A stretch of DNA of 46,378 bases from NCBI RefSeq assembly GCF_029978005.1, contig NZ_JARKOZ010000051.1:1-46378 (forward strand), read 5' to 3'. A model generated the notes under the pieces. It did no database searches and was not told the origin of the DNA. It worked only from the letters and a program-made list of their open reading frames with translations. The position numbers were made by a program, and so were the translations under genes. This document shows positions 11,476-30,746 of the stretch, piece after piece; position 1 is the first letter of the stretch, and each line of letters begins with the position of its first letter. The stretch is from Solidesulfovibrio sp. Its GTDB lineage: Bacteria > Desulfobacterota > Desulfovibrionia > Desulfovibrionales > Desulfovibrionaceae.

Positions 11476-12915
11476 CTAGGAAGCCAGGGGCGGCTTGACG
11501 CCATGGAAGAACAGCCAGGAGATGAACAGCCCGATCCAGATGATGAACCCGAACAGGCTCACCACGTAGACCAGGGCCAGGCGGCCGATGCCTTCATCCC
11601 AGAGCTTCTTGAAGTTGGACACCACGCCGATGGTGAAGAAGGTCAGCACGAAGAAGATGGCCCGGAAGGGACCGGTGTCGCCGATGGCGGTCTTGCCGAA
11701 CTTCAGCATGTCGCCGCCCTTGGCGCACAGGATCAGCATGATGATGAAGGTGATGACGTAGCCGAGGACGAAGCGCGGGAAGCGGTCGAGGATCGCACCG
11801 AACTTCATGCGTTCGCCGGGCTTGCACTCGATCATGGTGCACCAGATGGCGGCCAGGATGAAGGCCCACACGCCGATGAACACGTCGATGAAGATCTTGA
11901 TGGTGGTGGCCGCCATGGTCACCCAGCCTTCCTGGTACTTGATGCCGTCCACGGCCATGGCCTGGGCGCGGATGAGCGCGTCGGTGATGACGCCCGAGGC
12001 GATGGCGCCGCCGTCGGACTTGACGGCCAGGCCCATCCAGGCGCCGGCCACCATGGGCTCGCCGTACATCCAGTGCTGGGCGACGAAGGGCAGGATCAGC
12101 ATTTCCACGCAGGTAAAGACGACGACCAGCGAGGAAACCATTATCGGGACGATGGGGCGGGCGCGGATCGCGCCGCCGGTGGCGATGGCGGCGGAAACGC
12201 CGCAGATGGAGATGCCGGAAGCGAGCGGAGCGGCCCATTCACGGCTGAACTTAAAGTATTTCCGGGAGATATAATACACCAGGGCCCAGTAGATCAGGTA
12301 GGCCTCGACGATGGCGCAAAGGCCCCGGAAGATGACCGAGGAGGCCAGGCCCAGGGCGTCCACGGACTTGACGCCGAGCTCCGCGCCGAGGATCACGATG
12401 GCGATCTTGACGAACATCTCGGGCTTGAGCGCGTCCTTGAACTTCTCGGCCAGCCCCGGCATGAAGTTGCCGATGAAGATGCCGGCCAGAAGCGCGATGA
12501 TGAATCCCGCCTCGCCGGTCAGGCCCATGGCCCAGGTCAGGTTGTACTTCTTGAGCTGGTCCGGAGTGGCGGCGATGACCGCGTAGTGCCCCAGGGCGTA
12601 GCAGAAGTAGCCGATGAAGAAGACCAGGGTGAAGCTGACGGCGAACCGTTTGGGGTCGCCGCCCAGCGCCTTGACGCCGACGGCCAGCATGGCCGTGACG
12701 AAGATCCAGGTCAGGATCAGCGAGGCGAACCCCGACAGGTCCTTGTAGGCCCCGGTGGCCGCCGAGAAGATCTGGGACGCATTGGTCCACACGTTGATCT
12801 TCACGGCCCAGCCGAGCGGATCCACGCCGCCGAAGTTGAAAAGCGACAAGCCGAAAAGGATCAGCCCCAAAATGAGGGCCAGCTTGTCTTCCGTCAGCCA
12901 TTTCTTTTCCGCCAT
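11476..12915 (-). CDS. YeiH-family putative sulfate/anion exporter
   Basis: The 479-aa membrane protein has about 12 hydrophobic segments and matches the YeiH/UPF0324 (Cons_hypoth698) family. Characteristic stretches are GLTGEAGFIIALLAGIFIGN, AIVILGAELGVKSVDALG and ASGISICGVSAAIATGGAI, with the conserved Gly-rich re-entrant region. It is more than 100 residues longer than E. coli YeiH, mainly through extra segments at both ends. The family is annotated as putative sulfate exporters, but transport has rarely been shown. The start at 12915 has AAGGAGGGA upstream. It is probably in an operon with the 57-aa protein and divergent from the heme-sensor kinase. A candidate sigma54 promoter lies at 13175-13189. 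Confidence 0.82.
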   Translation of the reverse strand: MAEKKWLTEDKLALILGLILFGLSLFNFGGVDPLGWAVKINVWTNASQIFSAATGAYKDLSGFASLILTWIFVTAMLAVGVKALGGDPKRFAVSFTLVFFIGYFCYALGHYAVIAATPDQLKKYNLTWAMGLTGEAGFIIALLAGIFIGNFMPGLAEKFKDALKPEMFVKIAIVILGAELGVKSVDALGLASSVIFRGLCAIVEAYLIYWALVYYISRKYFKFSREWAAPLASGISICGVSAAIATGGAIRARPIVPIMVSSLVVVFTCVEMLILPFVAQHWMYGEPMVAGAWMGLAVKSDGGAIASGVITDALIRAQAMAVDGIKYQEGWVTMAATTIKIFIDVFIGVWAFILAAIWCTMIECKPGERMKFGAILDRFPRFVLGYVITFIIMLILCAKGGDMLKFGKTAIGDTGPFRAIFFVLTFFTIGVVSNFKKLWDEGIGRLALVYVVSLFGFIIWIGLFISWLFFHGVKPPLAS

Positions 12916-13174
12916 GACTCCCTCCTTACGCGTTGACGATGACGCAGCCCATCGCGACCGCCCGCACTGCGCGAACCTTCCCGCCGCCTCTCTCCCAAGG
13001 CCTTCGCGGGCCGGCCGCCATGCCGCGTGATCGCTCCCGCCAGGCCGCGCCATGGCGTCGGCCCGCGTTCGCTCCGTCCTCCCCTGTCACAATCCGGTGC
13101 GCGGCCCCTTGCCGGGAAGCCCTCTCCCCGCGCCGGCCGCCCCGCCGGGGGGCACGCCGCCCCGCTTGCCTTAA

Positions 13175-13189
13175 GCAAGTCCGGGACCA
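13175..13189 (-). promoter_or_regulatory. Candidate sigma54 promoter for the YeiH unit
   Basis: On the minus strand the site reads TGGTCCCGGACTTGC: TGG at -24 and TTGC at -12 with the required 10-bp gap between GG and GC. The inferred transcription start is near 13163, about 250 bp before the coding start. The inverted repeat CTTGC-CTTAA-GCAAG (13165-13179) overlaps the -12 element. Upstream on that strand is an AT-rich island (about 13190-13240). The rest of the 423-bp gap, 12916-13338, holds no gene that I can see. It must also carry the promoter of the kinase gene on the plus strand, which I cannot place securely. Confidence 0.45.
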
Positions 13190-13338
13190 AAATCTCATTC
13201 ACACATAATATATTGATATAGCATACTATTATTTCAAAGCTGGACCGAAACTGCCAACTCGCGTTAGCAGTTCGCATCCCGGCGTTCGCATTGCCTTTTT
13301 CCCGCAACGGCCACACAAGGAAGACAAGGGAGAAACCC

Positions 13339-15804
13339 ATGGCCAGACATCGCCCCAGCACCATCAAGCATCGCTTCGTGGTGGGCCTTTCCGTCATCAT
13401 GGCCCTGCTCGGGGTCTTCTTCGCGGTCATCATCTCCATGAACCTGCGCAACCAGCTCGTCACGGACACCGAGCACAAGGCCTCCCTGGTCCTGTCCCAG
13501 GCCGAGGCCGTGCAGGCCTACGTGCGCCAGGTGCTGCGGCCGTCCATGTACCATCTGCTGCCGCCCGACGCCTTCCTGCTGGAGGCCATGTCCACTTCCT
13601 TCGTCACCCGCCGGGTGATGAGCGACTTCAACATCCAGGGCGACCAGTACAGGTACCGCCGGGTGGCCATCGGCTCGCGCAACCCCGACTACGAGGCCGA
13701 CGCCTTCGAGCGCGCCCTCATGGAACGTTTCGAAAAGGACCCGGAGCTGACCCGGGTGGAGGAGATCACCGAGCGCGGCGGCGAGGAGGTGTTCGTGGCC
13801 GCCCGGCCGGTGCGCCTGGACGCCTCGTGCCTGCACTGCCACGGCGACCCCGAAACCGCGCCGCGGGAGCTCATCGAACGCTACGGCGACAAGCGCGGCT
13901 TCTGGCGGCATGACGGGGAGCTCGTGGGCGTGGACGCCGTGACCATGCCCGTGGCCGGGGCGCTGGGGCAGATCAAGGGAGCCACCATCAGCTTCATGGG
14001 CCTGTTCGCCCTGGGGCTCGGCGTCTTCTACCTGACCATGCAGGTCTTTTTCGACCGGCTGGTGGTGGTCAATCTGCGCCGGGTGACGGAGGTCATGCGC
14101 CGGTTCTTCCCCAAGGAAGCCGACGAGGAGCCGCGCCCCCCCCGGGGCGAGGGCGAGATCGACGAGATCTACGCCGGTATCGAGGACTTCGCCGCGCGCC
14201 TCAAGGAAGCCCGGGGCAAGATCGAGGACCATGCCCAGAACCTGGAACGCAAGGTGGCGGACCGCACCCTGGACCTGGCCAACGAAGCCGACGAACGCCG
14301 CGCCGACGTGGCCCTTTTCGTGGAACTCCTGAGCATCCTCAACATGTCCCAGACCCGGGCCGAGCTGCTCTCCGGGGCGCTGGCCCGCATCGCCGAGCGC
14401 TTCGGCGCGCGCGCGGCGGCCTACGAATGCGAGTTCTCCGGCGGCGGCTCGGTAACCTGGCCGCCCGGCACGGCCGCGCCGCCGCCGCCGGCCGACTGGC
14501 GCAGGCTCGTGGCCGGCAACGAGCTGCGTCTGGAAGCCCACGCCGCCCTCGTGCCCGTGCGCACCACGGACGTGAGCCGGGGGCTGTTGCGCCTGTACTT
14601 CCCCGAGGACGGCTCCGGCCCCTCGCCCGAGGCGGCCGACCTCTACCGGGCCATCGGCCAGCAGCTCGGCATCGCGCTGGAAAACCTCGACGCCATCAAT
14701 TCGCTGCTCGGCCAAAACACCTTGCTCGCCTCCATCTTCGAGGGCATCTCCGATCCGCTGGCCCTGCTCGACGCCGGCTTCGGCGTCATCCTGGCCAACG
14801 AGCCGGCCCGGGAACTGGCCCGGGCCGTGCAAAAGGACCGGGCCGGCCCCCACTGCCCGGCCCCGCCGGCCGGCCCCGGCCAGGCCCCGAGCCTGCCCCC
14901 GGAGATCTTCGGCCCGCCGGACGGCGTGCTGACCGACGCGCCGGCCCGAACGGCCTCCGGGCGCTCGGTCTCCACGGTCACCCTGCCCGACGGCCGCTCC
15001 TTCGCCGTCACCCGCTACGCCCTGGACGACTCCACCGGCGGCACCGGCCGCATGGTGGTCTACGCCCGCGAAAACACCGCCGAGCGGCGCATGCGCGAGC
15101 AGATGCGCCAGACCGAGAAGCTCGTGGCCGTGGGCAAGCTGGCCGCCGGCCTCGCCCACGAGATCAACAATCCGCTCGGCGTCATCAGCTGCTACGCCGA
15201 GCTGCTGCGCGGCAGCATCGCCGATGCCCAGGCCATCGAGGACCTGGCCGTCATCGAACGCCACGCCGACATGGCCAAGAAGGTGTTGCGCGACCTGCTG
15301 GATTTCGCCCGGCCGCGCCCGGCCACGCCCGGCCCCTGCGACCTGGAGGCGCTGCTCAAGGGGCTTTCGCGCATCTTCGACGTCCAGGCGCAAGCACGCA
15401 AGGTGCGGCTCGTCACCCGCGCCGCGCCGTCCCTGCCCCTGGCCAAGGCCGACGCCTCGGGCCTGGAGCAGGTGCTCTCCAACCTGCTTTTAAACGCCCT
15501 GGACGCCGTCTCGCCCGGGACCGGCGAGATCGTCATGGAAGCCGTGGCCAGCCCCGAACCCGAGGCGGTGCGCATCCGGGTGGCCGACAACGGGCCGGGC
15601 ATCGCGCCCGAGGACATCACGCGCATCTTCGACCCGTTCTTCACCACCAAGGAGGCCGGGCGCGGCTCCGGCCTGGGCCTGGCCGTGGTCTACGGGCTGC
15701 TGCGCGACATGGGCGGCCGGGTCGAGGTGGAAAACGCCGGGGGCGCGGTCTTCACCGTCACCCTGCCGGCCTGCGGCCGCAGTTGCCAGGAGGAGGCGTC
15801 ATGA
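13339..15804 (+). CDS. Sensor histidine kinase with Tll0287-like c-heme sensor domain
   Basis: The 821-aa membrane kinase has a first membrane helix at about residues 12-33 and a periplasmic DUF3365/Tll0287-like domain with one c-type heme motif, C164-L-H-C-H168. A second helix is at about 213-238. It is followed by a HAMP/coiled-coil linker, a GAF-like region (about 325-455), a PAS-like region (about 470-590), the HisKA box (LAAGLAHEINNPLGVI) and a HATPase domain (NLLLNALDAV, DNGPGIA, GRGSGLGLAVVYG). A bound heme suggests sensing of redox state, NO, CO or another small ligand in the periplasm. The start has GGGAGA upstream. It overlaps the regulator gene by 4 bp (ATGA), so the two form a pair. 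Confidence 0.9.
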   Translation: MARHRPSTIKHRFVVGLSVIMALLGVFFAVIISMNLRNQLVTDTEHKASLVLSQAEAVQAYVRQVLRPSMYHLLPPDAFLLEAMSTSFVTRRVMSDFNIQGDQYRYRRVAIGSRNPDYEADAFERALMERFEKDPELTRVEEITERGGEEVFVAARPVRLDASCLHCHGDPETAPRELIERYGDKRGFWRHDGELVGVDAVTMPVAGALGQIKGATISFMGLFALGLGVFYLTMQVFFDRLVVVNLRRVTEVMRRFFPKEADEEPRPPRGEGEIDEIYAGIEDFAARLKEARGKIEDHAQNLERKVADRTLDLANEADERRADVALFVELLSILNMSQTRAELLSGALARIAERFGARAAAYECEFSGGGSVTWPPGTAAPPPPADWRRLVAGNELRLEAHAALVPVRTTDVSRGLLRLYFPEDGSGPSPEAADLYRAIGQQLGIALENLDAINSLLGQNTLLASIFEGISDPLALLDAGFGVILANEPARELARAVQKDRAGPHCPAPPAGPGQAPSLPPEIFGPPDGVLTDAPARTASGRSVSTVTLPDGRSFAVTRYALDDSTGGTGRMVVYARENTAERRMREQMRQTEKLVAVGKLAAGLAHEINNPLGVISCYAELLRGSIADAQAIEDLAVIERHADMAKKVLRDLLDFARPRPATPGPCDLEALLKGLSRIFDVQAQARKVRLVTRAAPSLPLAKADASGLEQVLSNLLLNALDAVSPGTGEIVMEAVASPEPEAVRIRVADNGPGIAPEDITRIFDPFFTTKEAGRGSGLGLAVVYGLLRDMGGRVEVENAGGAVFTVTLPACGRSCQEEAS

Positions 15805-17207
15805 GCGACTTCACGCCGCGCGTGCTGATCGTCGACGACCAGCCGGACTTCGCCCGGGGGCTCGCGCGGCTGCTCGCGCCCAAGCTCCCCGAGGCCAGGC
15901 TCGACCACGTCCTCTCCGCCGAGGCCGCCCTGGAGGACCTGCGCGCCCATCCCTGCGACGTGCTGGTCACGGACCTGCGCATGCCGGGGCTGTCCGGCCT
16001 GGAGCTGCTCACCCGGGCCCTGGCCCTGGAGGCGCGGCTGGGCGTGGTGCTGCTCACTGCCCACGGCGACATCGACACCGCCGTGGCCGCCCTCAAGGCC
16101 GGGGCCTACGACTTCCTGACCAAGCCCGTGGATTCGGAGCACCTGGCCCGGGTCGTCGCCAAGGGCCTGGAGCGGGCGGAACTTTTGCGCGAGAACCAGC
16201 GGCTGCGCGCCGCCGTCGCCGCCTGCGGCGCGGGCGACGGCCTGCTCGGCCAGTCCCCGGCCATGGCGCAAGTCAAGGAAGCCATCGCCGCCGTGGCCGG
16301 CTCGGACTACACCGTGCTCATCCGGGGCGAATCCGGCACGGGCAAGGAGCTGGCCGCCCGGGCCCTGCACAGCCTGTCGCGCCGGGCCGACGGGCCGTTT
16401 CTTTCGGTCAACTGCCCGGCCATCCCGGACCAGCTGCTCGAAAGCGAACTCTTCGGCCATGTGCGCGGGGCCTTCACCGGAGCCGAACGCGACCGGCGCG
16501 GCCTGTTCCTGTCCGCCAACGGCGGCGTCATCGTGCTCGACGAGATCGGCGACATCCCCATGAGCGTGCAGACCAAGCTTTTGCGCGTGCTCCAGGAACG
16601 CGAGGTACGGCCCGTGGGATCCAGCAAGTCCTCGCCCATCGACGTGCGCATCCTGGCCTCCACCAACCAGGACCTGGAAGCCAAGATCGCGGACAAGTCC
16701 TTCCGGGAGGACCTCTACTACCGCTTAAACGTCCTCACCGTGCGCATGCCACCCCTTCGCGAGCGACGCGACGACATACCGCTGCTCGCCACGGCCTTCC
16801 TGGCCCGGGCCTGCCGCGAGACGGGCATCGGCGAAAAGGAGTTCTCCCCCGAGGCCCTGGCCGCCCTGGCCGGCCGGGACTGGCCGGGCAACGTGCGGGA
16901 ACTGTTCAACTTCGTGCGCCGGCTCACGGTCTTTTGCCGCGGCGACGTCATCGGCCCCAAGGCCGTGGCCACGGCCGATCCGGACCAGTCCGACCCCAAC
17001 GACGGCGAGGACGAGGCCGGCATGGCCGCGCCCTACCTCGAAGCCAAGGCCCGCGTGGTGGACGCCTTCACGCGGCGCTACGTCGAACGCCTGCTCGGCC
17101 AGACGCGCGGCAACGTGTCCGAAGCGGCCCGGCTGTCCGGGTTGGAACGGGTGTCGCTGCAAAAGATATTGCGGCGGTTGGGAATCGCAGCGGAAGGCTA
17201 TCGCTGA
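15801..17207 (+). CDS. NtrC-family sigma54-dependent response regulator
   Basis: The 468-aa regulator has a receiver domain (VDDQPD, phospho-acceptor D58 in VTDLRMPG, K in LTKPVD). It is followed by an AAA+ domain with Walker A GESGTGKE, the sigma54-contacting GAFTGA loop and Walker B VIVLDEIGD. A C-terminal Fis-type helix-turn-helix ends the protein (GNVSEAARLSGLERVSLQKI). Its partner kinase is encoded directly upstream with an ATGA overlap and AGGAGGAGG before the start. Likely targets are the flanking transcription units, because candidate sigma54 promoters precede both the YeiH unit and the aldehyde oxidoreductase gene. Confidence 0.93.
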   Translation: MSDFTPRVLIVDDQPDFARGLARLLAPKLPEARLDHVLSAEAALEDLRAHPCDVLVTDLRMPGLSGLELLTRALALEARLGVVLLTAHGDIDTAVAALKAGAYDFLTKPVDSEHLARVVAKGLERAELLRENQRLRAAVAACGAGDGLLGQSPAMAQVKEAIAAVAGSDYTVLIRGESGTGKELAARALHSLSRRADGPFLSVNCPAIPDQLLESELFGHVRGAFTGAERDRRGLFLSANGGVIVLDEIGDIPMSVQTKLLRVLQEREVRPVGSSKSSPIDVRILASTNQDLEAKIADKSFREDLYYRLNVLTVRMPPLRERRDDIPLLATAFLARACRETGIGEKEFSPEALAALAGRDWPGNVRELFNFVRRLTVFCRGDVIGPKAVATADPDQSDPNDGEDEAGMAAPYLEAKARVVDAFTRRYVERLLGQTRGNVSEAARLSGLERVSLQKILRRLGIAAEGYR

Positions 17208-20166: not shown

Positions 20167-21510
20167 TCAGTCCAGGCCGTACTGCTTGATCTTGCGCCAC
20201 AGCGTGGTGCGCGGCACGTCGAGGATCTGGGCGGTCAGGCCCTTGTTGTAGCCCGTGCGTTCCAGCACCTTGGCGATGTAGCGCCGCTCCATCTCCTCCA
20301 GCGACACCAGCCCCTCGCCCTCCACGGAATCGAAGTCCATCTGGCGCAGGTCGGCCGGCAGGTCCTTGACGGCCAGCGTCTCCCCCTCGGCCAGGGCCAC
20401 GCCGCGCTCGACGATGTTCTCGAGCTCCCGCACGTTGCCCGGGTAGCTGTAGGCGGCCAGGATGCGCATGGCCTCGGGCTCGATGGCGGTCACGGCCTTG
20501 TGGAAGGCCAGGCTGTACTTCTCCAGGAAATGGGCGGCCAGGGGGGCGATGTCCTCCCGGCGCTCGTCCAGGCGCGGCAGGGGGATGGTCACCACGTTGA
20601 GGCGGAAATAGAGGTCCTCGCGAAAGGCCCCGGAAGCGGCCTCGTGCTTGAGGTCCTTGTTGGTGGCCGCCACGATGCGGATGTCGAGGTCGATGGGCTG
20701 GGTGCCGCCCACGCGCCGGATACGCCGCTCCTGGATGGCCCGCAGCAGCTTGACCTGCATGGAAAGCGGCATCTCGCCGATCTCGTCGAGAAAGACCGTG
20801 CCCCCGGCCGCCGACTCCAGAAGCCCGATCCGGGCGGCCGTCGCCCCGGTGAAGGCCCCCTTCTCGTAGCCGAAAAGCTCGCTGCTGATGAGCTCCTCGC
20901 TGAACGCCCCGCAGTTGAAGGACACGAAGGGCCGGTCCCGGCGGCCGCTCTGGCGGTGCAGCGCCCGGGCCACCAGCTCCTTGCCCGTGCCGCTGCCGCC
21001 GAGGATGAGCACGTTGCAGTCCACCGGGGCCACCTTGTCGATCATGGCGAAGACCTTGCGGATGGCCGGCGAGACCCCGATGATGGGCCGCTCGCCCGGC
21101 GCGCCGCGAAGGGCCTGGCGCAGGGCGGTGTTCTCGCGCTTGAGTTCCGCCCGCTCCAGGGCCGATTGGGCCAGATGGCGCACCTCCTCCAGCTTGACCG
21201 GCTTCTGGGCGTAGTGGAACGCCCCCTCCTTGACCGCCGCGATGGCCGTCTCGATGGTGCCGAAGCCCGTGATCACCACGACCTCCGTGGCCGGGGACAC
21301 GGACTTGACCGTCGGGATGAGCGCCACGCCGTCGCCGTCGGGCAGCATCAGGTCCAGGAAGGCCAGGTCGAAGGGCGCTTCGGCATGGCGGGCCAGGAAG
21401 GCCCGGCCCTCGGTGAAGGCCTCGACCTCGGCCCCGTCCTTGGCCAGGGCGCGGCTTAGGCGGTTGCAGACGATGGTCTCGTCGTCCACCACGGCGATGC
21501 GGGCTTTCAT
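20167..21510 (-). CDS. NtrC-family sigma54-dependent response regulator
   Basis: The 447-aa regulator has a receiver domain (VVDDET, D53 in FLDLMLPDGD, K in AQKPVK). Its AAA+ domain has Walker A GGSGTGKE, GAFTGA and FLDEIGEMP. A Fis-type helix-turn-helix lies at the C-terminus (NKGLTAQILDVPRTTLWRKI). Walker A starts GGSG rather than GESG, a small deviation. It overlaps the kinase gene upstream by 4 bp. The seven-gene unit starting at 23351 is divergent and has a sigma54-type promoter, so this regulator is its natural activator. Confidence 0.93.
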   Translation of the reverse strand: MKARIAVVDDETIVCNRLSRALAKDGAEVEAFTEGRAFLARHAEAPFDLAFLDLMLPDGDGVALIPTVKSVSPATEVVVITGFGTIETAIAAVKEGAFHYAQKPVKLEEVRHLAQSALERAELKRENTALRQALRGAPGERPIIGVSPAIRKVFAMIDKVAPVDCNVLILGGSGTGKELVARALHRQSGRRDRPFVSFNCGAFSEELISSELFGYEKGAFTGATAARIGLLESAAGGTVFLDEIGEMPLSMQVKLLRAIQERRIRRVGGTQPIDLDIRIVAATNKDLKHEAASGAFREDLYFRLNVVTIPLPRLDERREDIAPLAAHFLEKYSLAFHKAVTAIEPEAMRILAAYSYPGNVRELENIVERGVALAEGETLAVKDLPADLRQMDFDSVEGEGLVSLEEMERRYIAKVLERTGYNKGLTAQILDVPRTTLWRKIKQYGLD

Positions 21511-22961
21511 GTCGCGGCCTCCGGGGTTTCGCCGCCCGGCGGCGCGGCCGGGGTCACGGGACGGGGCGCGCCGGGCAGAAGCAGGCTGAAGGCCGCGCCG
21601 CCGAGGCTCGAGGCATCCACCCCGATGCGCCCGCCGTGGCGCTTGGCCAGGGAATAGGCCACGGCCAGCCCCAGCCCCGTGCCCTGGCCTACGCCCTTGG
21701 TGGTGTAGAAGGGCTCGAAGATGTGCTCGCGCGCCTCGGCGGGCACGCCAGGGCCTGAATCCTCCACGGTGAACCGCGTGGCCCCGCCCTCGTCCGCGGT
21801 CACGGCCAGGCGCACCGCGCCGCCGCGCGGCGTGGCCTGGGCGGCGTTTTGCAGCATGTTGACCAGCACCTGCTGGAGGCTTCGCAGGTCGCCGCGCACG
21901 TCCGGCAGATCCGGCGGCACGTCCAGGCTGAAGGCCAAGCCGGCGGCCTGCATCTGGTTTTTCACCAGGCTCGCGCTCGTGGCCGCGACTTCAAGCGGCG
22001 ACAGGGGCACCAGCGGCGGGCGCTCGGTGCGCGAGAAATCGAGCAGGTTGCGCACGATGTCCGCCGCCCGGTCGGCCTGGCCGGCGATGTCCTCCACGAG
22101 CTCCCGCCCCTCCGCGTCCAGGCCGGCGGCATGGTCCTCGCGCAGGGCGTCGGCGGTCAGGGTGATGTTGTTGATGGGGTTGTTGAGCTCGTGGGCCACG
22201 CCGGCGGTGAAGGTGCCGAGTGCGGCCATCTTGCGGGCCTGGAGCAAATGCTCCTGGTTCTCCTCCAGGTGGCGGGCCATGAGGTTGAAGGCCCCGAGCA
22301 GCCCGGCGATCTCGTCGCTGAGGCCATTTCGCACCGGTGCCGGGCGGAAGTCGCCCTCGCCCACGCGCCGGGTGGTCTCGCGCAGGAGCGCCAGGGGCCG
22401 CAGCACCCGGGTGGAGACCAGGGCCACCACGGCCACGGTCACGGCCAGGAACACCCCGGCGAAGGCGAAGGGCAGGGCCAGAGAACGGTCGATGGTCTCG
22501 TGGATGCGCCGGCGCTTGTCGGAGAGGAGCCGGGTGGCGAAGTCGGTCAGGGCCTTGCCCCGGGTGCGCACGGCCTCGGTCGCGGCGGCGTCGGGCGTGC
22601 CCGAGGCGGGCAACGCGGCCAGGGCCGTACGGTAGGCGGACAGGTCGTCCAGGAACTCGCGGTAGGCCCCGGGGCCGAGCTCCCGGTCCATGCCGCCGGT
22701 CAGGCCGCCGGCCAGCCGGTCCACGGCGTCGAGGTAGTCCAGCCCTTCGCGCAGGCTGGCCGCGTCGTGGTAGAGCAGGTAGTTCTTCTCGAAGCGCCGC
22801 ACCTCGAGGATGTCGCTTTGCAGCTCCTCGATGCGCTCGCTGACCAGGTAGCGCTCCCGCAGGGCCGACAGGCTCCCCAGGTGCAGCGCGGCCAGGGCGG
22901 CCACGGCGAAAAGGCTCGCCGCGAACACGAAAAGCATCTTCGATCGGATGGTGCGCAACAT
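21507..22961 (-). CDS. Membrane sensor histidine kinase with a periplasmic four-helix-type sensor
   Basis: The 484-aa kinase has a first membrane helix (MLFVFAASLFAVAALAAL, about residues 9-26). An all-helical periplasmic domain of about 130 residues follows (SERIEELQSDILEVRRFEKN and onward), resembling methyl-accepting or DAHL-type helical sensors. After the second helix (about 167-190) come HAMP, HisKA (GVAHELNNPINNITL) and HATPase (LQNAAQAT, DSGPGVP, GTGLGLAVAYS). The ligand is unknown. The ATG at 22961 directly precedes the first helix. Between this start and the Usp-like gene lie 389 non-coding bases (22962-23350), which carry a sigma54-type site at 23314. Confidence 0.9.
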   Translation of the reverse strand: MLRTIRSKMLFVFAASLFAVAALAALHLGSLSALRERYLVSERIEELQSDILEVRRFEKNYLLYHDAASLREGLDYLDAVDRLAGGLTGGMDRELGPGAYREFLDDLSAYRTALAALPASGTPDAAATEAVRTRGKALTDFATRLLSDKRRRIHETIDRSLALPFAFAGVFLAVTVAVVALVSTRVLRPLALLRETTRRVGEGDFRPAPVRNGLSDEIAGLLGAFNLMARHLEENQEHLLQARKMAALGTFTAGVAHELNNPINNITLTADALREDHAAGLDAEGRELVEDIAGQADRAADIVRNLLDFSRTERPPLVPLSPLEVAATSASLVKNQMQAAGLAFSLDVPPDLPDVRGDLRSLQQVLVNMLQNAAQATPRGGAVRLAVTADEGGATRFTVEDSGPGVPAEAREHIFEPFYTTKGVGQGTGLGLAVAYSLAKRHGGRIGVDASSLGGAAFSLLLPGAPRPVTPAAPPGGETPEAAT

Positions 22962-23313
22962 GCCGGTCGTCCTTGGCGGGCAAGCCCCGGGCTCGCCGTT
23001 TCTCCAGGCCCCCGCGGACGCCCTCGTCCGCCGGCCGGATTTCTCCCCGCGCCCCGGGGAACGCCGGCCAACGCAAGCCGCGCCCCGGTCGCCTTCGTCC
23101 GTCGCGCCGTCCTGGCAGCAAAGGCCATTCCAACCGCGACCGCCCGCCGGGCCGGGCTTTTTTCCCGGGCTCCGGCCGCGCCCGTCCCAGAGTGAAACAT
23201 CGCCCGGCCGGCTTGGCCAGGAACTTTTCAATCTGGAACACCGAATCCGCCATCTCCTTCCCCCGCTTCCAACAAATCCAGCGATGCCCGGGCGTTGCGC
23301 CGACGCATCGCCA

Positions 23314-23328
23314 TGGCCCGGGCGTTGC
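23314..23328 (+). promoter_or_regulatory. Strong sigma54 promoter candidate for the seven-gene PpsA-like unit
   Basis: TGGCCCGGGCGTTGC matches the consensus TGGCACG-N4-TTGC at ten of eleven fixed positions and has exact spacing. The same core (GCCCGGGCGTTGC) occurs 30 bp earlier at 23286-23298 but without the GG of the -24 element. The predicted start is near 23340, leaving only about 11 bases of leader that still include the GGGAGA ribosome site. Nothing else recognisable is in the 389-bp gap except GC-rich sequence and a T6 run near 23157. Confidence 0.65.
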
Positions 23329-23350
23329 TTAGACGGCCGGGGAGAAACCC

Positions 23351-23797
23351 ATGGAACGCATACTCGTCGGCATGACGCCCCGTCACGGGGCTTTCGCCGC
23401 CCTGACCCGGGCGCTGTCCCTGGCCAAGCGCATCGGCGCCAAGGTCCACGTGCTGTACGTGACCGAGGGCCCCGAGGACAACACGCGCGCCACGCCGCCC
23501 CTGGCCGCCGCCGACGACCGGGGGCGGGTGCGCCTGATGGTGGAGCGGGCCCAGGAAGAGGGGGTGGGCGTCGAATGCTTCGTGACCGAGGGCGACTTCG
23601 AGGAAGAGGTGATCCGGTTCGCCCGTGATCGCAGGATCACGCTCCTGGTGTCGGAATCGGCCGACGGGGAAGGGCGCGCATCGGAGCGGGAGGCCCAATC
23701 CCTGCGGCGCATCCTGCATGGCGTCTCCTGCCGGGTGGAGCTTGTGACCCCGCGCCGGGAGCCGAACGAAACACAAACGAAAGGTGAGGCGACATGA
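23351..23797 (+). CDS. Universal stress protein-like (Usp) protein
   Basis: The 148-aa single-domain protein has the Usp fold pattern: MERILVGMTPRHGAFAALTRALSLAKRIGAKV (split here only for description), then HVLYVTEG, an amphipathic helix, VECFVTEGDFEEEVIRFARD and LLVSESAD. The canonical C-terminal ATP loop GxxGx9GS is not visible, so it is closer to non-ATP-binding members. It is the first gene of the unit. Its stop overlaps the TauE start by 4 bp (ATGA). In this setting it may be a regulatory or sensor partner of the exporter or the PpsA-like enzymes. Confidence 0.75.
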   Translation: MERILVGMTPRHGAFAALTRALSLAKRIGAKVHVLYVTEGPEDNTRATPPLAAADDRGRVRLMVERAQEEGVGVECFVTEGDFEEEVIRFARDRRITLLVSESADGEGRASEREAQSLRRILHGVSCRVELVTPRREPNETQTKGEAT

Positions 23798-24735
23798 GCA
23801 TTCCCATGACCCTGTACCTGCCCATCGCCGGCAACTCGGTGAACATCCTGGCCGTGCTGGGCCTCGGCGGCGGGGTGGGCCTGCTGTCCGGCATCTTCGG
23901 CGTGGGCGGCGGCTTTCTGATGACGCCGCTGCTCATGATGATGGGCATCCCGGCCACGGTGGCCGCGGCCTCGGACTCCAACCAGATCGTCGGGGCCTCC
24001 ACCTCGGGCACGTTAATCCACCTGCGCCTGGGCAACGTGGACGTCAAGATGGGCGTGTTGCTCCTCATCGGCGGCGTCCTCGGCGGCACGCTCGGCGTCC
24101 AGCTCATCAAAATCCTGCGGGCCATGGGCAACGCGGACTTCTGCATCGCCATCACCTACGTCCTCATGCTCGGCGGCGTGGGTTCCTACATGTTCTTCGA
24201 GTCCCTAAGCTCCATGCGAAAGGCCAAAAAGCCGGCCCCGGCCAAGGCCGCCGCCCCGGCCAAGGCCTCGGGCTACGCGAGGTTCATGGCCGCCCTGCCC
24301 TTCCAGATGGAGTTTCGCCGTTCGGGCATCCGCCAGTCGGCCCTGACCCCGCTTTTCTTCGGCGGCCTGGTCGGCGTGCTTTCGGCCATCATGGGCGTGG
24401 GCGGCGGCTTCATCATGGTCCCGGTCATGGTCTACATGCTGCGCATGCCCATGCACGTGGTGGTGGGCACGAGCCTTTTCCAGGTCCTTTTCACCTGCAT
24501 CAACGTCACCATCATGCAGGCGGCCGAGAACCACACCGTGGACTTCGTGCTGGCCCTGCTCCTTTTGATCGGCTCGGCCATCGGGGCCCAGTTCGGGGCG
24601 CGCATCGGCCGCCGGCTCCACGGCGACCAGCTCAAGGTCTACCTGGCCTGCATCGTGCTCCTGGTCATGTTCAAGATGCTCTACGAACTGCTGGCCCGCC
24701 CGGACGTCCTGCTGGCGGCCATCGGAGGACACTAG
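23794..24735 (+). CDS. TauE/SafE-family sulfite/organosulfur exporter
   Basis: The 313-aa membrane protein has about eight membrane helices in two repeats. Each repeat opens with a Gly-rich signature: GLLSGIFGVGGGFLMTPLLMMMGIP near residue 28 and GVLSAIMGVGGGFIMVP near residue 195. These are diagnostic of TauE/SafE. A cytoplasmic Ala/Lys/Pro-rich linker (about residues 145-165) joins the halves. Family members export sulfite, sulfoacetate or related anions. It sits between the Usp-like gene (4-bp overlap) and the TIGR02186 gene. Confidence 0.9.
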   Translation: MSIPMTLYLPIAGNSVNILAVLGLGGGVGLLSGIFGVGGGFLMTPLLMMMGIPATVAAASDSNQIVGASTSGTLIHLRLGNVDVKMGVLLLIGGVLGGTLGVQLIKILRAMGNADFCIAITYVLMLGGVGSYMFFESLSSMRKAKKPAPAKAAAPAKASGYARFMAALPFQMEFRRSGIRQSALTPLFFGGLVGVLSAIMGVGGGFIMVPVMVYMLRMPMHVVVGTSLFQVLFTCINVTIMQAAENHTVDFVLALLLLIGSAIGAQFGARIGRRLHGDQLKVYLACIVLLVMFKMLYELLARPDVLLAAIGGH

Positions 24736-24736
24736 C

Positions 24737-25495
24737 ATGCGTCGCCCGCTCCTCGTCGCCGTCCTGACCGCAATGCTGGCCGCCGCGTCCGGCGCGGCCC
24801 TGGCCGAATCCCTGCCGCCGCTGGCCGTTTCGCCCCAGGCCGTGGCCATCGATTCCCTGTACAACGGCGAGGACCTGACCGTGACCGGCCAGGTGCCGGC
24901 CGGCAGCCAGGTGGTGGTGCGCCTTTCCGGCGAGCCCCGGACCTTCCGCATGAAGGAGAAGGGCCGGGTGCTCGGCGTCCTGTGGATGAACACGGACAAG
25001 GTGTCCTTTTCCGGCGCGCCGAGCGTCTTCCTGGTCGCCGCCTCCAAGGACGCCCCGGCCGGGGACGTGGCCTCCCTCGGCGTCCCGGGCCTGGCCAAGG
25101 CCATCAAGGTCGAAACCCACGATCCGGACCCGTCGGCGCTGACGGCCGAGTTCCTCCGCTTCCAGAAGGCGGAGAAGCTCTACCTGGAAAACGCCGGCCA
25201 GGTGACGCTCGGCCCGGACGCCGGGGATATGCGCCCGTTTTCCGCCGTGCTGCGCCTGCCCTCCCGGCTCTCCCCGGGGGCCTATTCCGTGGAGGTCCTG
25301 GCGCTTCGGGACGGCGCGGTCGCGGCCAGCGCCGCCGCCTCGGTCAACGCCTCCTTCGTCGGCGCGCCGGCCTTCCTGGCCGACATGGCCTTCGGCCACG
25401 GCACGCTCTACGGCGTCCTGGCCTCGATCATCGCCATCCTGGGCGGCCTGGTCATCGGCCAGATCTTCAGCGGCTCCAAAAGCGGCGCGCACTAG
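24737..25495 (+). CDS. TIGR02186-family membrane-anchored periplasmic protein
   Basis: The 252-aa protein has a signal peptide (LLVAVLTAMLAAASGAALA, cleavage about residue 23), a beta-rich periplasmic domain starting LPPLAVSPQAVAIDSLYNGE, and one C-terminal membrane helix (TLYGVLASIIAILGGLVIGQ) with a short tail. It matches TIGR02186/Alph_Pro_TM, a family without known function that I recall often encoded next to TauE/SafE exporters, as here. The ATG follows the exporter stop by one base, with GGAGGA inside the end of that gene. It may be a periplasmic substrate or assembly partner of the exporter. Confidence 0.8.
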   Translation: MRRPLLVAVLTAMLAAASGAALAESLPPLAVSPQAVAIDSLYNGEDLTVTGQVPAGSQVVVRLSGEPRTFRMKEKGRVLGVLWMNTDKVSFSGAPSVFLVAASKDAPAGDVASLGVPGLAKAIKVETHDPDPSALTAEFLRFQKAEKLYLENAGQVTLGPDAGDMRPFSAVLRLPSRLSPGAYSVEVLALRDGAVAASAAASVNASFVGAPAFLADMAFGHGTLYGVLASIIAILGGLVIGQIFSGSKSGAH

Positions 25496-25515: not shown

Positions 25516-28101
25516 ATGGGCGTCATCAGCAGGATCGCACAGGCGCTTCGCCTCGCGCCCCGGGGGAAGACCCCGGTGCCCTTCGTGGTGCTCTTCAAGA
25601 AATTCAAGAGCATCCTGGAGCGCAACAACCGCATCCTCACGCTCATGGCCGACATGGGCGACAAGCTCGGCGGCGAATACGTCTTCGACCGCCGCTACGT
25701 CGAGGAGGCCTGCGAGGAGCTCTCCGACCAGATCTTCAAGCTCGTCTCCGACCTGTCCATTTTGAACCGCTGCCGCAACGTGCCCCTTTTCACGGCCTTC
25801 GAAACCGTGCGCCAGGAGATCGCCGACGAGCTGGCCGGGCGGCACCATTTTCCGGACACCGCCCCCACCCTGCCCCTTTCCGCTCTGCGGGCCGACATGG
25901 CCGACGCCGCCGGCGGCAAGTTCGCCATGCTGGGGGAACTCAAGAACGTGCTTCAACTGCCCGTGCCCGACGGCTTCGTCGTCACCACGAGAGCCTTCGC
26001 CGAGTTCATGGCCCGAAACGGCCTGCCGGATTGCATCGCCGAGCAGACCCGCCGCCTGGATGCGGACGAGGAAGGGGCCATCGCCGACGCCTCGGCCAAG
26101 GTGCGCCAGCGCATCCTGGCGGCGAGCCTGCCGCGCGGGCTTTCGCGCGGCATAAGCGAGGCCGTCGCCGCCCTGGCCGAGCGCCTGGGCCGGGCCCCGG
26201 CCAGCCTGGCCGTGCGCAGCTCGGCCTGGAACGAGGACGGCGAGGCCAGCTTCGCCGGCCAGTACGAAAGCGTCATCGGCGTGCCGCCCGCCCAGGCGGC
26301 CGAGGCCTTCAAGCGGGTGGTGGCCGGGGCCTACACCCCCGAGGCCTGGCTCTATCGCCGCCGCCGGGGATTTAAGGAGCACGAGGCGGTCATGGCCGTC
26401 GGGTGCCAGGTCATGATCGACTCCCTGGTCAGCGGCGGGCTCTACACCTACGCGCCGCTCACCCGCAACGAGGAGGGCGTCTTCGTCAGCGCCGCCTGGG
26501 GCCTGTGCGCCCCGGTCATGTCCGGCGAGATCGAGACCGACTCCTACCTGATCGCCCGGCGCGCGCCGTTTGCGACCGTGTCCCGGGAGATTGCCCACAA
26601 GCCCCGGGGACTGGCCCTTCGCCCCGAGGGCGGCACGGCCTACGCGGACCTGCCGCCGCAAAAGGCCGACGCGCCCTGCCTGACCGAGGCCGATCTGTCG
26701 CTTCTGGGCGAGGTGTCCCTGTCCCTGGAAAAATACTTCAAGCGGCCCCAGGACGTGGAGTGGACCATCGACGCCGCCGGCCGCCTGTACGTGCTGCAAA
26801 GCCGGCCCATGTTCTTCTACGGCGACCCGGCCCGGCGCACCGGGGCCATCGACGCGGCCGTGAAGGACGCCGAGATCGTCTTTTCCGGGCGCGGCGACGT
26901 GGTGCAGCGCGGCGTGGCCATGGGCCGGGTCCATGTCGTCAGGAGCGACGCCGACCTCGACGACTTCCCCTTCGGCGCGATCCTGGTCGCCCGCCACACC
27001 TCGCCGCGCTATTCCCGGGTCATGCCCCGGGCCCAGGGCATCCTCACGGACATCGGCTCCCCGGCCGGCCACATGGCCGCCGTGGCGAGGGAATTCCGCC
27101 TGCCCACGGTGGTCGGCTGCGACCTGGCCACGCAGTTGCTTCAAACCGGCGACGAGATCACCGTGGATGCCACCCAGAACGTGGTCTACCGGGGGCTGGT
27201 CAAGGAGCTGCGCTACTTCGAGCTGACCGAGGAGGCCGTGTACGAGGATTCCTACGAGTACCGGCTGCTGCGCCGCCTGCTGAAAAAAATCACGCCCCTG
27301 AACCTCGTCGATCCCCACGCCCCGAGCTTCACCCCGGCCTCCTGCCGCACCTACCACGACATCACCCGCTATATCCACGAACAGGCCGTGGCCGAGCTCA
27401 TCGCCTTCAGCGAGAACAGCCTGGGCATCCTCGACCCCTCGGCCCGAAAGCTCCGCACGACGTTGCCGCTCAACCTCTCCATCATCGACCTCGACGGCGA
27501 CGGCAGCGCCCAGGACGGCGAGATCGAGGTCCGGGACCTGCCCTCCCTGCCCCTGCGCGAGCTCGTGGCGGGCCTGACCGAATCGGGCATGTGGGAAACG
27601 GCCCCGGTGCCCGTGGACATGGGGAGCTTCATGGCCAGCCTCACCCGGACCCTCGGCATGGGCGGTCCCGGCGAGGAGAAGCTCGGGCGCAACCTGGCCG
27701 TGGTCTCGCGCGAGTACATGAACCTCAACCTGCACCTGGGCTACCACTTCGTCCTCGTCGACGCCTATGCCGGCGAGGTGGTAAACGACAATTCGCTCTA
27801 TTTCCGATTCCTGGGCGGGGTGACGGATTTCGCCCGCCGGGCCAGGCGGGCGCGCTGCATCGGCAAGATCCTGGAGCGGGCCGATTTCCGGGTCGAGATC
27901 CACGGCGACCTGGTCATCGGGCGCATCAAGAAGGTCGACCTGGAAACCATGCGGGCCAAGCTGCGCCTGCTCGGCGGCCTCGTGGGCTTCACCCGCCAGC
28001 TCGACGTGCGCCTGTCGCGCGAAGACGACGCGCACTGCTTCGCCGAGGAATTTCTCGCCGCCATAAAGCCGGTGACGGAGGACGCCCATGACCCAGCCTG
28101 A
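25516..28101 (+). CDS. PpsA-like phosphotransferase 1 (ATP-grasp plus phosphohistidine domain)
   Basis: The 861-aa protein has an N-terminal helical region (about 1-110) and a PPDK_N ATP-grasp domain (about 125-435). The latter carries LAVRSSAWNEDGEASFAGQYE near residue 230 (described in parts) and the closing VLQSRPMFF near 426. A PEP-utiliser mobile domain follows with H519 in GSPAGHMAAVAREF, the expected phospho-carrier. The PEP/pyruvate TIM barrel of PpsA and PPDK is missing. In its place is a domain of about 260 residues (about 600-861) with CRTYHDI near 609 and LGYHF at 741-745. The enzyme should move a phosphoryl group from ATP to the His and then to an unknown acceptor. It is shared with two downstream paralogues. 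There is no strong Shine-Dalgarno; the gap to the previous gene is 20 bp. Confidence 0.8.
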   Translation: MGVISRIAQALRLAPRGKTPVPFVVLFKKFKSILERNNRILTLMADMGDKLGGEYVFDRRYVEEACEELSDQIFKLVSDLSILNRCRNVPLFTAFETVRQEIADELAGRHHFPDTAPTLPLSALRADMADAAGGKFAMLGELKNVLQLPVPDGFVVTTRAFAEFMARNGLPDCIAEQTRRLDADEEGAIADASAKVRQRILAASLPRGLSRGISEAVAALAERLGRAPASLAVRSSAWNEDGEASFAGQYESVIGVPPAQAAEAFKRVVAGAYTPEAWLYRRRRGFKEHEAVMAVGCQVMIDSLVSGGLYTYAPLTRNEEGVFVSAAWGLCAPVMSGEIETDSYLIARRAPFATVSREIAHKPRGLALRPEGGTAYADLPPQKADAPCLTEADLSLLGEVSLSLEKYFKRPQDVEWTIDAAGRLYVLQSRPMFFYGDPARRTGAIDAAVKDAEIVFSGRGDVVQRGVAMGRVHVVRSDADLDDFPFGAILVARHTSPRYSRVMPRAQGILTDIGSPAGHMAAVAREFRLPTVVGCDLATQLLQTGDEITVDATQNVVYRGLVKELRYFELTEEAVYEDSYEYRLLRRLLKKITPLNLVDPHAPSFTPASCRTYHDITRYIHEQAVAELIAFSENSLGILDPSARKLRTTLPLNLSIIDLDGDGSAQDGEIEVRDLPSLPLRELVAGLTESGMWETAPVPVDMGSFMASLTRTLGMGGPGEEKLGRNLAVVSREYMNLNLHLGYHFVLVDAYAGEVVNDNSLYFRFLGGVTDFARRARRARCIGKILERADFRVEIHGDLVIGRIKKVDLETMRAKLRLLGGLVGFTRQLDVRLSREDDAHCFAEEFLAAIKPVTEDAHDPA

Positions 28102-28501
28102 AACGACCGCCCGGACGAAACGACGCCTGCTCGTCCTCGACGACGAGCCCATCGTGGTCAAACGCCTCAAGCCCGCCTTCCAGAAGGCCGGCTACGACGT
28201 GGAGGTCTTCACGGACAGCGCCGCGGCCCTGGCCGCCTTCGAGGCCGACCCGGCCGACATCGTCATCACCGACCTCAAGATGGAGGGCCTCGACGGCATC
28301 GCCTTCCTCGACCGGGTCAAAGCCGTCTCGCCCGAAGTCGGCGTCATCGTCATCACCGGCTTCGCCACCCTGGAGACGGCCAAGGAATCCTTCCACAAGG
28401 GGGCCTTCGACTTCGTGGCCAAGCCCTTCAAGCTGGCCGACATCCTGGATGTGGTCGGCCGCCTCGAATCCCACCTGGAAAGCCGACGCCATGCCCGTTG
28501 A
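28088..28501 (+). CDS. Stand-alone response-regulator receiver domain
   Basis: The 137-aa CheY-like protein has every switch residue: D18-D19 in VLDDEP, phospho-acceptor D62 in VITDLKMEG, T90 in VITGF and K112 in VAKPFK. No output domain follows, only a short basic tail. It overlaps the upstream PpsA-like gene by 14 bp and the downstream one by 11 bp, so it is translated with both. This suggests that it acts on those enzymes by protein contact rather than on DNA. The kinase at 21507 is the obvious candidate phosphodonor. Confidence 0.9.
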   Translation: MTQPETTARTKRRLLVLDDEPIVVKRLKPAFQKAGYDVEVFTDSAAALAAFEADPADIVITDLKMEGLDGIAFLDRVKAVSPEVGVIVITGFATLETAKESFHKGAFDFVAKPFKLADILDVVGRLESHLESRRHAR

Positions 28502-30746
28502 TTCCGCCCGATCCGGCGCGCCGGGCGAGGCCCGGGCCTTCTTCTCGAAGTTCCAGGCCCTGCTCGAGGCCAACACCGCCGCCCTGGCCGCCATGGCGGG
28601 CCTGGAGCGCATGCTCGGCGGGGAATACATCTTCGACCGGGCCTTTCTGGAGAAATCCGCCCGCGAGGCCACGGACCACGCCCATCAGGCCGTTTATGCC
28701 CTCAATGCCATGACCGGCAACCGGCACATCGACCTCTACGACCGCTTCATGGCCCTGGCCGCCGCCGTGGAGGACATCCTGGCCGGCCGGCCCGAGCCCG
28801 GGGACGGGAGCCTCGTGCGGTCCCTGTCCGACCTGCGCCTGGAGGACCAGGCCAAGGCCGGACGCGACGCCGCCGCCCTGGGCGAGCTGGCCGGACGCCT
28901 GGGCCTGCCCGTGGCACGCGGCTTCGTCCTGGCCGCGCCCGCCTTCGGCGAAGGCGGGGACCTCGCGCCGGACGCCCGCGCCGCCCTGGCCGAGGCCCTG
29001 GCCGCCCCGGAGACCGCTCCGGGAAGCCCCTCCCTGACCGTGTCCGTCGCGGCCCTCGCCCCGGCCGAGGCGCGACTCGCCCTGTCGCGAAGCGGCGTGC
29101 CGGCCGAGGCCGCGCCCCTGGCCGCCGCCCTGGAGGCGCTCGGCCGCGAGGTCGCCGGCCAGGCCCCGGTGGGGGCCAGGCTCGCGGCCACGAACCTGGC
29201 CGCGCCCCCGGCCCCGGCGCGCGGCCGGCTGCGCACGGCCTTCGTCGGCCAGGGCGGCGCGGCCTTTCTGCGTTGCGACGTCTGGGACGAGGCCGACCCG
29301 GCCCGGGCCGCCGTCATCCTTTTCGACCGCGCCCATCCCTTCGCTCCGGCGCAGCCCGCCCCGGAGACGGACGCCGCCGCCTGGGCCGGCCTGACGCGCC
29401 TGGCCGCCCGGGCGTTGGCCGGCCAGGGGCTGGCCGCCGAGCGCCTGCTCGGCGCGGCCGTGGACATGGGCTTTCGCCTGGCAGCCTCGGGCGAGGTCGT
29501 ATTCGAATCCGCCGCGGCGCTGCCTTTCGTGCCCCTGGGCGCGCCGCCGGGGGACGCGCCGCCGGCGCTTCTGTGCGGCGGCGAGCCGGCCTGCCTCGGC
29601 GCGGCGGCCGGCGTGGTGGTCCACGTGGACGAGGACACGCCGCCCGATTCCCTGCCCTACGGGGCCGTGGCCGTGGCCCGCTCGGCCTCGCCGGCGCTGG
29701 CCCCGCTGCTGCGCCGGGCCGGGGCGGTGGTGGCCGAGGTCGGCGACGCCGTGGGGCACCTGGCGGCCATCGCCCGGGAATGCCGCACCCCGGCCCTTTT
29801 CGGCCTGGCCGGGGCCATGGAGGCCCTGCCCGAGGGGCGGCTCGTCACGGTGGACGCCGCCTCGGGCTGCGTGCTGGCCGGCGTCGGCCCGACCCGGCCG
29901 GCCCCGGACGGCGGCCTGTCCCCGGACGACCCCGAATACCTGGTGCTGCGACGGCTCCTGCGCCGCATCGCCATCCTGCACCTCACCGACCCCGACGCCC
30001 CGGATTTTTCCGCCGCCGGTTGCCGCACCCTGCACGACGTGCTGCACTACGCCCACGACCGGGCCGTGGCCGTGCTGGCCGACCTGCGCCAGGCCGGGGT
30101 TTCCGAGCGCGCGGCCACGCCGCTCCCCCTGCCCCTGCCCCTGGACCTGCGGGTCCTGGACATCGGCGGCGCGCTGGCCCCCCGGGCCTCGGGCCTCGCC
30201 GACGTGCGCTCCCGCCCCCTGGCCGCCGTGCTCCAGGGCCTGCTTTTGCCCGGGATGTGGGAGACCGGCCCGGCCCGGGTGGGCCTTGGCGACATCATCG
30301 GGGCCATGGCCCGGCCGCTGCCCGACATGCGCGGCAACCTGGCCATCGCCGCCCGGTCCTACTGCAACCTGAGCCTGCGCCTGGGCTACCACTTCACGGT
30401 CATCGACGCCTACGTCGGCGACAACCCGGAGAAAAACGCCATCGCCTTCCGCTTCGTCGGCGGGCTGGCCGACGCCGCCGGGAAAAACGCCCGCGCCGCC
30501 TGCGTCGGGCGCATCCTGTCGCGCCGGGGCTTCAAGGTGGAGACCGCGGGCGAGCTGGCCACGGCCCGGCGCAAGATGATCGAGCCCGAACCGGCCCTCG
30601 AGGCCCTGCGCCTGCTCGGGGCTCTTTGCGCCTTCGCCCGCCAGCGCGACACCGGACTGTCCGGACCCGGCGCGGCCGAGGCGCTGGAGCGGGCCTTTCT
30701 CGACGCCTGGGAAGCCGCCGACCCGGACGGAGGGAAGACGCCGTGA
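28491..30746 (+). CDS. PpsA-like protein 2 with a degenerate ATP-grasp and an intact phosphohistidine domain
   Basis: The 751-aa protein is a paralogue of the genes on both sides. The N-terminal helices are clearly homologous (MLGGEYIFDRAFLEKSA against MGDKLGGEYVFDRRYVE of protein 1). The ATP-grasp region is shorter and lacks both the RSS-x-ED-SFAGQ segment and the QSRP end; the equivalent end reads VVFESAAALPF. The phosphohistidine domain is kept: H423 in GDAVGHLAAIARE. The C-terminal domain has CRTLHDV (near 511) and LGYHF (631-635). It probably cannot bind ATP normally and may serve as a phosphocarrier or regulatory subunit for proteins 1 and 3. Confidence 0.78.
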   Translation: MPVDSARSGAPGEARAFFSKFQALLEANTAALAAMAGLERMLGGEYIFDRAFLEKSAREATDHAHQAVYALNAMTGNRHIDLYDRFMALAAAVEDILAGRPEPGDGSLVRSLSDLRLEDQAKAGRDAAALGELAGRLGLPVARGFVLAAPAFGEGGDLAPDARAALAEALAAPETAPGSPSLTVSVAALAPAEARLALSRSGVPAEAAPLAAALEALGREVAGQAPVGARLAATNLAAPPAPARGRLRTAFVGQGGAAFLRCDVWDEADPARAAVILFDRAHPFAPAQPAPETDAAAWAGLTRLAARALAGQGLAAERLLGAAVDMGFRLAASGEVVFESAAALPFVPLGAPPGDAPPALLCGGEPACLGAAAGVVVHVDEDTPPDSLPYGAVAVARSASPALAPLLRRAGAVVAEVGDAVGHLAAIARECRTPALFGLAGAMEALPEGRLVTVDAASGCVLAGVGPTRPAPDGGLSPDDPEYLVLRRLLRRIAILHLTDPDAPDFSAAGCRTLHDVLHYAHDRAVAVLADLRQAGVSERAATPLPLPLPLDLRVLDIGGALAPRASGLADVRSRPLAAVLQGLLLPGMWETGPARVGLGDIIGAMARPLPDMRGNLAIAARSYCNLSLRLGYHFTVIDAYVGDNPEKNAIAFRFVGGLADAAGKNARAACVGRILSRRGFKVETAGELATARRKMIEPEPALEALRLLGALCAFARQRDTGLSGPGAAEALERAFLDAWEAADPDGGKTP

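Follow-up and report, generated by a model that had tools for sequence, protein, structure and literature searches.

The locus described here belongs to Solidesulfovibrio sp. (NCBI RefSeq assembly GCF_029978005.1, contig NZ_JARKOZ010000051.1), of which a stretch of 46,378 nucleotides, referred to as the window, was analyzed. Two gene sets diverge from an intergenic region of 389 bp. On the minus strand, a histidine kinase with HAMP, HisKA and HATPase_c domains (21507-22961, Pfam, ATG start) is followed by an NtrC-type response regulator (20167-21510, Pfam), which has a Fis-type HTH and a GAFTGA motif that is visible in its translation. The plus strand encodes a universal stress protein (usp, 23351-23797; Pfam Usp), a TauE/SafE (TSUP) permease (23794-24735; Pfam TauE, PF01925), a membrane protein of the Alph_Pro_TM family (24737-25495; Pfam), a PPDK_N/PEP-utiliser mobile-domain protein (25516-28101; Pfam), a lone receiver-domain protein (28088-28501; Pfam Response_reg) and a second PEP-utiliser-like protein (28491-30746; Pfam PEP-utilizers, scanned from 28449), which gave no Pfam PPDK_N match. 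Between 25516 and 30746, the two PEP-utiliser-like proteins flank the lone receiver, and their matching regions overlap in tblastn (approximately 35% identity); the pair and the receiver possibly form an uncharacterized signaling or phosphotransfer set.

Relatives of usp were collected from 59 whole genomes, 19 of which matched at a total of 20 places. Thirteen of these places (L009-L021, the window being L009) were used, and seven with weaker Usp matches (L022-L028, E 3.5e-8 to 8.8e-4) were left out; in four of the latter, L023, L025, L026 and L027, the search pattern found no TGG-type site upstream. Named contigs contributed 16 further loci, and six duplicates with the same upstream sequence were then dropped from the total of 29 (L067, L068, L079, L080, L081 and L082, which duplicate L014, L015, L018, L017, L021 and L019, respectively), leaving 23 distinct loci. 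The named relatives are several Solidesulfovibrio as well as Fundidesulfovibrio, Nitratidesulfovibrio liaohensis and uncultured deltaproteobacteria. The divergent kinase gene is adjacent in 22 of the 23 loci, and it is followed by the gene of an NtrC-type regulator in all 16 loci with enough sequence. Within the genus, usp with a close tauE was found in 11 of 14 genomes and a regulator match with an E-value of at most 1e-150 in 10 of 14 (121 of up to 213 candidates scored). In G002, a usp-tauE genome that is 69% complete, the regulator matches in two pieces on the contig concerned (L068). The three genomes without the usp-tauE operon (G005, G006 and G009) contain distant kinase matches of the 33-39% identity class and gave no regulator match at E 1e-150; since 121 of up to 213 candidates were scored, absence of the regulator from these genomes is likely rather than proven.

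Directly upstream of usp, the sequence TGGCCCGGGCGTTGC (23314-23328, +) has the GG and GC of a sigma54 -24/-12 promoter at the correct spacing. TGGCCCG and TTGCT, at 23314-23329 and with the fixed spacing between them, fit the consensus tGGcacg / tTGCt for sigma54 promoters of Desulfovibrionales (PMC4641369). A -24/-12 site is present in all 23 distinct loci, where it is located 37 to 47 bp before the usp ATG (-37 to -47 in 29 of 29 loci before duplicate removal), and it starts with TGG in 22 of them, L016 having AGGC instead of TGGC. When the window was scored with a matrix built from the 22 non-window sites, with four spacer positions omitted, TGGCCCGGGCGTTGC ranked first among 92,722 positions with 21.8 bits. 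The genome contains one rpoN match (PF04552, E 6.4e-60), and a gene for a GAFTGA activator lies next door. The sigma54 promoter with exact -24/-12 spacing that had been proposed in the original prediction is thereby well supported as a conserved promoter of the usp operon, and the transporter operon of this sulfate-reducing bacterium is probably switched on through RpoN. By convention, the sigma54 start site is placed 12 nucleotides after the C of the -12 element. In the window, this yields a predicted usp leader of 11 nucleotides (GGGAGAAACCC, 23340-23350, +), as had been anticipated from the sequence of the window, and the implied leaders of the 23 loci measure 11 to 21 nucleotides, which makes the short leader a likely trait of the whole family. 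An RNA leader or hairpin was considered and rejected: 22900-23400 gave no Rfam match, and the single-strand DNA fold of 23276-23336 has a z of -1.89, with 8 of 200 shuffled sequences folding equally well.

Further upstream lie two palindromic activator-type sites, CGTCCCAGAGTGAAACA at 23183-23199 and CTTTTCAATCTGGAACA at 23224-23240, which are found at -131 and -90 from the promoter start, respectively, and each match TGTTYCANNNTGRAACA in 12 of 14 positions. Palindromes like TGTTYCANNNTGRAACA occur in other loci at -89 to -93 and at -123 to -135 from the promoter. At least two activator-type sites with a score of at least 11/14 were found in 21 of the 23 loci as opposed to 1 of 2300 shuffled upstream regions, a figure that is partly circular because the activator consensus was derived from the same loci; in L077 and L078, one activator site is just below the threshold. 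The two sites of a pair are 41 to 42 bp apart in most loci and 34 to 35 bp apart in L017-L021 and L076. The core of the second site, TTTCANNNTGRAACA, is found without mismatch only once in the genome, at the site itself, and with up to one mismatch the activator core gave 22 matches genome-wide, compared to 11 for a reversed control. In eight of these 22 places, the surrounding 300 bp were examined for a sigma54-like site, which revealed the two sites of the window as well as TGGAGGTCGTCTTGC in L060, at a distance of 55 bp. A GAFTGA regulator encoded next to paired palindromes is the arrangement expected of an enhancer-binding protein, and the linkage suggests that the activator motif belongs to the neighboring NtrC-type regulator, which would bind to it.

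A second sigma54-like site, TGGAATGGCCTTTGC (23118-23132, -), faces in the opposite direction and precedes the kinase-regulator operon. It ranks ninth in the matrix scan and falls within a 20-bp block that L010 shares without a mismatch. In the interval from the kinase start to the first activator site, the pattern TGGN8TTGC was found on the minus strand in 9 of the 22 kinase-adjacent loci, whereas shuffles lead to an expectation of 0.25; all nine matches read TTGCT (0.036 expected), and each lies 50 to 51 bp from the first activator site. The other strand of the same interval gave no match among the 22 loci. The nine sites do not represent nine independent events, because they are confined to a few related lineages. 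Counting genome G010, in which the kinase gene is displaced, an opposed site is present in 10 of the 23 loci. Among the culturable relatives, Solidesulfovibrio alcoholivorans DSM 5433 (L067, which represents the locus of L014) carries sigma54-like sites in both directions. The opposed site is located at -171 from the kinase ATG in the window and at a distance of 88 to 109 bp in relatives (-88 in G001, -107 in G010, and -108 or -109 in four other genomes). In the window, the two palindromes are thus enclosed by sigma54-like sites at 23314-23328 (+) and at 23132-23118 (-), as is characteristic of divergent sigma54 promoters that share one regulator. Neither the two palindromic activator sites nor the opposed sigma54-like site had been part of the original prediction, which missed them. 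A terminator-like stem (23142-23157) separates the activator sites from the opposed promoter; the number of such stems is about that expected by chance.

In addition, the intergenic region contains a partial copy of the usp promoter. The window contains two occurrences of the 13-mer GCCCGGGCGTTGC, which start at 23286 and 23316, 30 bp apart, and the upstream occurrence (23286-23298) forms the core of ATGCCCGGGCGTTGC (23284-23298, +). The -24 GG had been described as missing from this copy, and one of the two G's is indeed absent, with ATGC replacing TGGC. When the intergenic region was shuffled 5000 times, 17 of the shuffles had an exact direct repeat of at least 13 bp at a distance of 13 to 60 bp; four such repeats are found in the 46-kb window, and the 13-mer itself occurs eight times in the 4.8-Mb genome. 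The repeat is thus mildly unusual for this intergenic region, but it could be accounted for by a local duplication of recent date or by convergence in GC-rich DNA. The possibility that an ancestral full tandem promoter is decaying in two lineages was discarded, because the window and its nearest relative, L010, align here without gaps and share only TTGCGCC; the promoter spacer of L010 also differs from that of the window. The partial copy is surrounded by the inverted repeat GCGATGC/GCATCGC.

It was considered whether the usp-proximal motif might be a chance match, with the operon being read from a sigma70-type promoter. The exact pattern TGGCN7TTGC is common in this GC-rich genome, where it occurs 456 times as opposed to 117 times for the reversed pattern, and nine copies are found on the two strands of the window; bare motif counts were discarded as evidence for a promoter. 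However, the motif is found at the same place in every distinct locus, and it is the position rather than the bare pattern that is unusual, since the pattern is present anywhere in 24 of 5000 shuffles that preserve the dinucleotides of the intergenic region, but within the last 60 bp in only six. Furthermore, a simple consensus scan detected nothing sigma70-like in the region at the scan threshold, and hardly any probability remains for a chance match. A different question is whether the partial copy has a function, as it had been suggested to bind RNA polymerase weakly or to act as a decoy. A weak sigma54-polymerase site or a decoy that tunes the real promoter would be in line with the local rarity of the 13-bp repeat, with the complete -12 TTGC that the copy has kept and with the presence of TTG near the same place in all four lineages of the closest clade, although 53 of 1000 shuffles match the latter. 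However, the copy lacks a -24 GG at the right spacing and reaches 2.3 bits, corresponding to rank 163 of the 92,722 positions that are led by the promoter, and it was found in none of the 22 other loci. Of the two copies, it is therefore the promoter that is conserved, and a role of the partial copy as a weak site or decoy is improbable. The copy is most likely a repeat particular to its lineage that has no promoter function, and it is of little importance unless an effect is shown in a reporter. A search of one open-access paper collection for sigma54 promoters that overlap, occur in tandem or act as decoys returned one paper, whose title concerns synthetic circuits.

The opposed site could also be a third activator half-site or the binding site of another protein, in which case the promoter of the kinase operon would be located elsewhere. 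On the plus strand, the -24 part of the opposed site reads TTCCA, which resembles the activator half-site GTTCCA/TGTTYCA; L014 scores 10/14 at the opposed site, and the opposed pattern is absent from 13 of the 23 loci. On the other hand, the TTGCT half is also constant in all nine matches and is found at a fixed spacing, and the two kinds of element are separated in G010 (L011 and L096). In this genome, the kinase and regulator genes are located approximately 2.7 kb from usp, and the stretch read here contains an antisense open frame of more than 400 codons. The activator sites of G010 remain with usp, whereas the opposed sigma54-like site remains with the kinase, where TGGAACGGGAGTTGC is found at -107 and its TTGC precedes an A instead of a T; within 1500 bp upstream of the kinase, no activator-type score exceeds 9/14. 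The persistence of the opposed site next to the kinase, in a region with such a low activator score, favors a kinase promoter over an activator half-site, and the latter is rather unlikely. If the opposed site is the kinase promoter, the activator sites of G010 would have to act over approximately 2.5 kb.

Taken together, the data are best explained by a sigma54/enhancer control region that works in two directions and comprises the kinase-regulator pair, the two activator sites and the opposed promoters, a reading to which we assign a probability of about 0.82. The sensor kinase (21507-22961, -) would phosphorylate its NtrC-type partner (20167-21510, -) in response to some signal, and the phosphorylated regulator would bind to the palindromes at 23183-23199 and 23224-23240. 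Using the energy of ATP, the regulator would then open the sigma54-RNA polymerase waiting at TGGCCCGGGCGTTGC, thereby initiating transcription approximately 11 nucleotides before the usp ATG. The resulting single transcript is predicted to cover usp, the TauE/SafE permease, the membrane protein, the PPDK-like protein, the lone receiver and the second PEP-utiliser-like protein. The same activator sites may, in the window and in part of its relatives, also serve the opposed promoter at 23132-23118, which would raise the expression of the kinase and the regulator and thus amount to positive autoregulation. The anatomy of the region, its conservation, the linkage of the genes and their co-occurrence can be read directly from the loci compared, and from these we infer phosphotransfer, binding, activation, start sites, the single operon transcript and autoregulation. 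What had been a guess from one sequence has thereby become a conserved regulatory unit that can be put to the test. It consists of a single regulator, a pair of activator sites and a pair of opposed sigma54 sites, and the transporter and PEP-utiliser-like genes with which it is linked are little understood.

This sigma54/enhancer region is well supported, and similar control regions have been described before for transporter operons of Desulfovibrio. Operons of TSUP or PSE transporters belong to the sigma54 regulome of D. vulgaris (PMC4641369). A close parallel in plan is found in Desulfovibrio vulgaris Hildenborough, where the kinase-regulator operon DVU0540-0539 and the usp-transporter operon DVU0542-0545 are divergent as in the window, and both operons are believed to be under the control of the regulator (PMC3333781, PMC4641369, PMC10102598). 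In an E. coli reporter, this regulator activated the DVU0542 promoter (PMC3333781, PMC10102598), and molybdate phenotypes have been reported for the DVU0539-0545 cluster (PMC10102598); the conditions that activate DVU0539 are stated to be unknown in PMC6456213. The likeness is one of operon plan: the transporter of this system, DVU0543, belongs to the PSE family, whereas usp is followed by a TauE permease (PF01925) in the window, and DVU0542-0545 includes another usp but lacks PPDK-like genes. The nitrate cluster DVU0251-DVU0245 / Dde_0597-Dde_0605 (PMC4001038) shares with the window a permease of the TauE type, a lone receiver and a PPDK/PEP-utilizing protein; it differs by an additional PtxB-like protein, a kinase of its own and a phosphatase, and no usp is listed for it. 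The regulatory plan, in turn, resembles that of zraP / zraSR of Salmonella and E. coli (PMC4987338), where the NtrC-type regulator ZraR of a two-component system acts at divergent sigma54 promoters of its own operon and of its target; the target zraP, unlike the operon in the window, encodes a periplasmic zinc-binding chaperone. Since related gene sets of Desulfovibrio have been linked to responses to nitrate and molybdate (PMC4001038, PMC10102598), the control region could be of use in identifying the signal.

Approximately 20 bp upstream of the -24 element, GTT was found in 8 of 13 lineages, which was reached by 1 of 1000 shuffles, and GTTG in 5 of 13 (10 of 1000 shuffles); within the closest clade, GTTG occurs in three of the four lineages (180 of 1000 shuffles), in addition to the TTG mentioned above. 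The positional excess was sought in four tests, of which the three besides GTT were weaker, and it is regarded as a lead only. It is conceivable, albeit very improbable, that a short GTT(G) element at this position contacts the polymerase or a bending protein, and that it has grown in the lineage of the window into a promoter-like parking site, which biases the traffic between the opposed promoters.

Other sigma54-like places in the window lie near further putative regulatory genes. A second transporter/two-component set extends from 11476 to 17207 and includes a minus-strand gene for a Cons_hypoth698 (PF03601) protein; the sigma54-like site TGGTCCCGGACTTGC (13189-13175, -) ranks third in the matrix scan, and 13291-15804 (+) contains a kinase-like frame followed by a receiver/sigma54-activator-like protein, both of which were recognized by eye from the translations. 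The site ranking second, TGGCACGACCGTTGC at 41389-41403 (-), is located inside a FAD_binding_4 frame (41212-42657) and close to a PrpR_N sigma54 activator (38930-40774).
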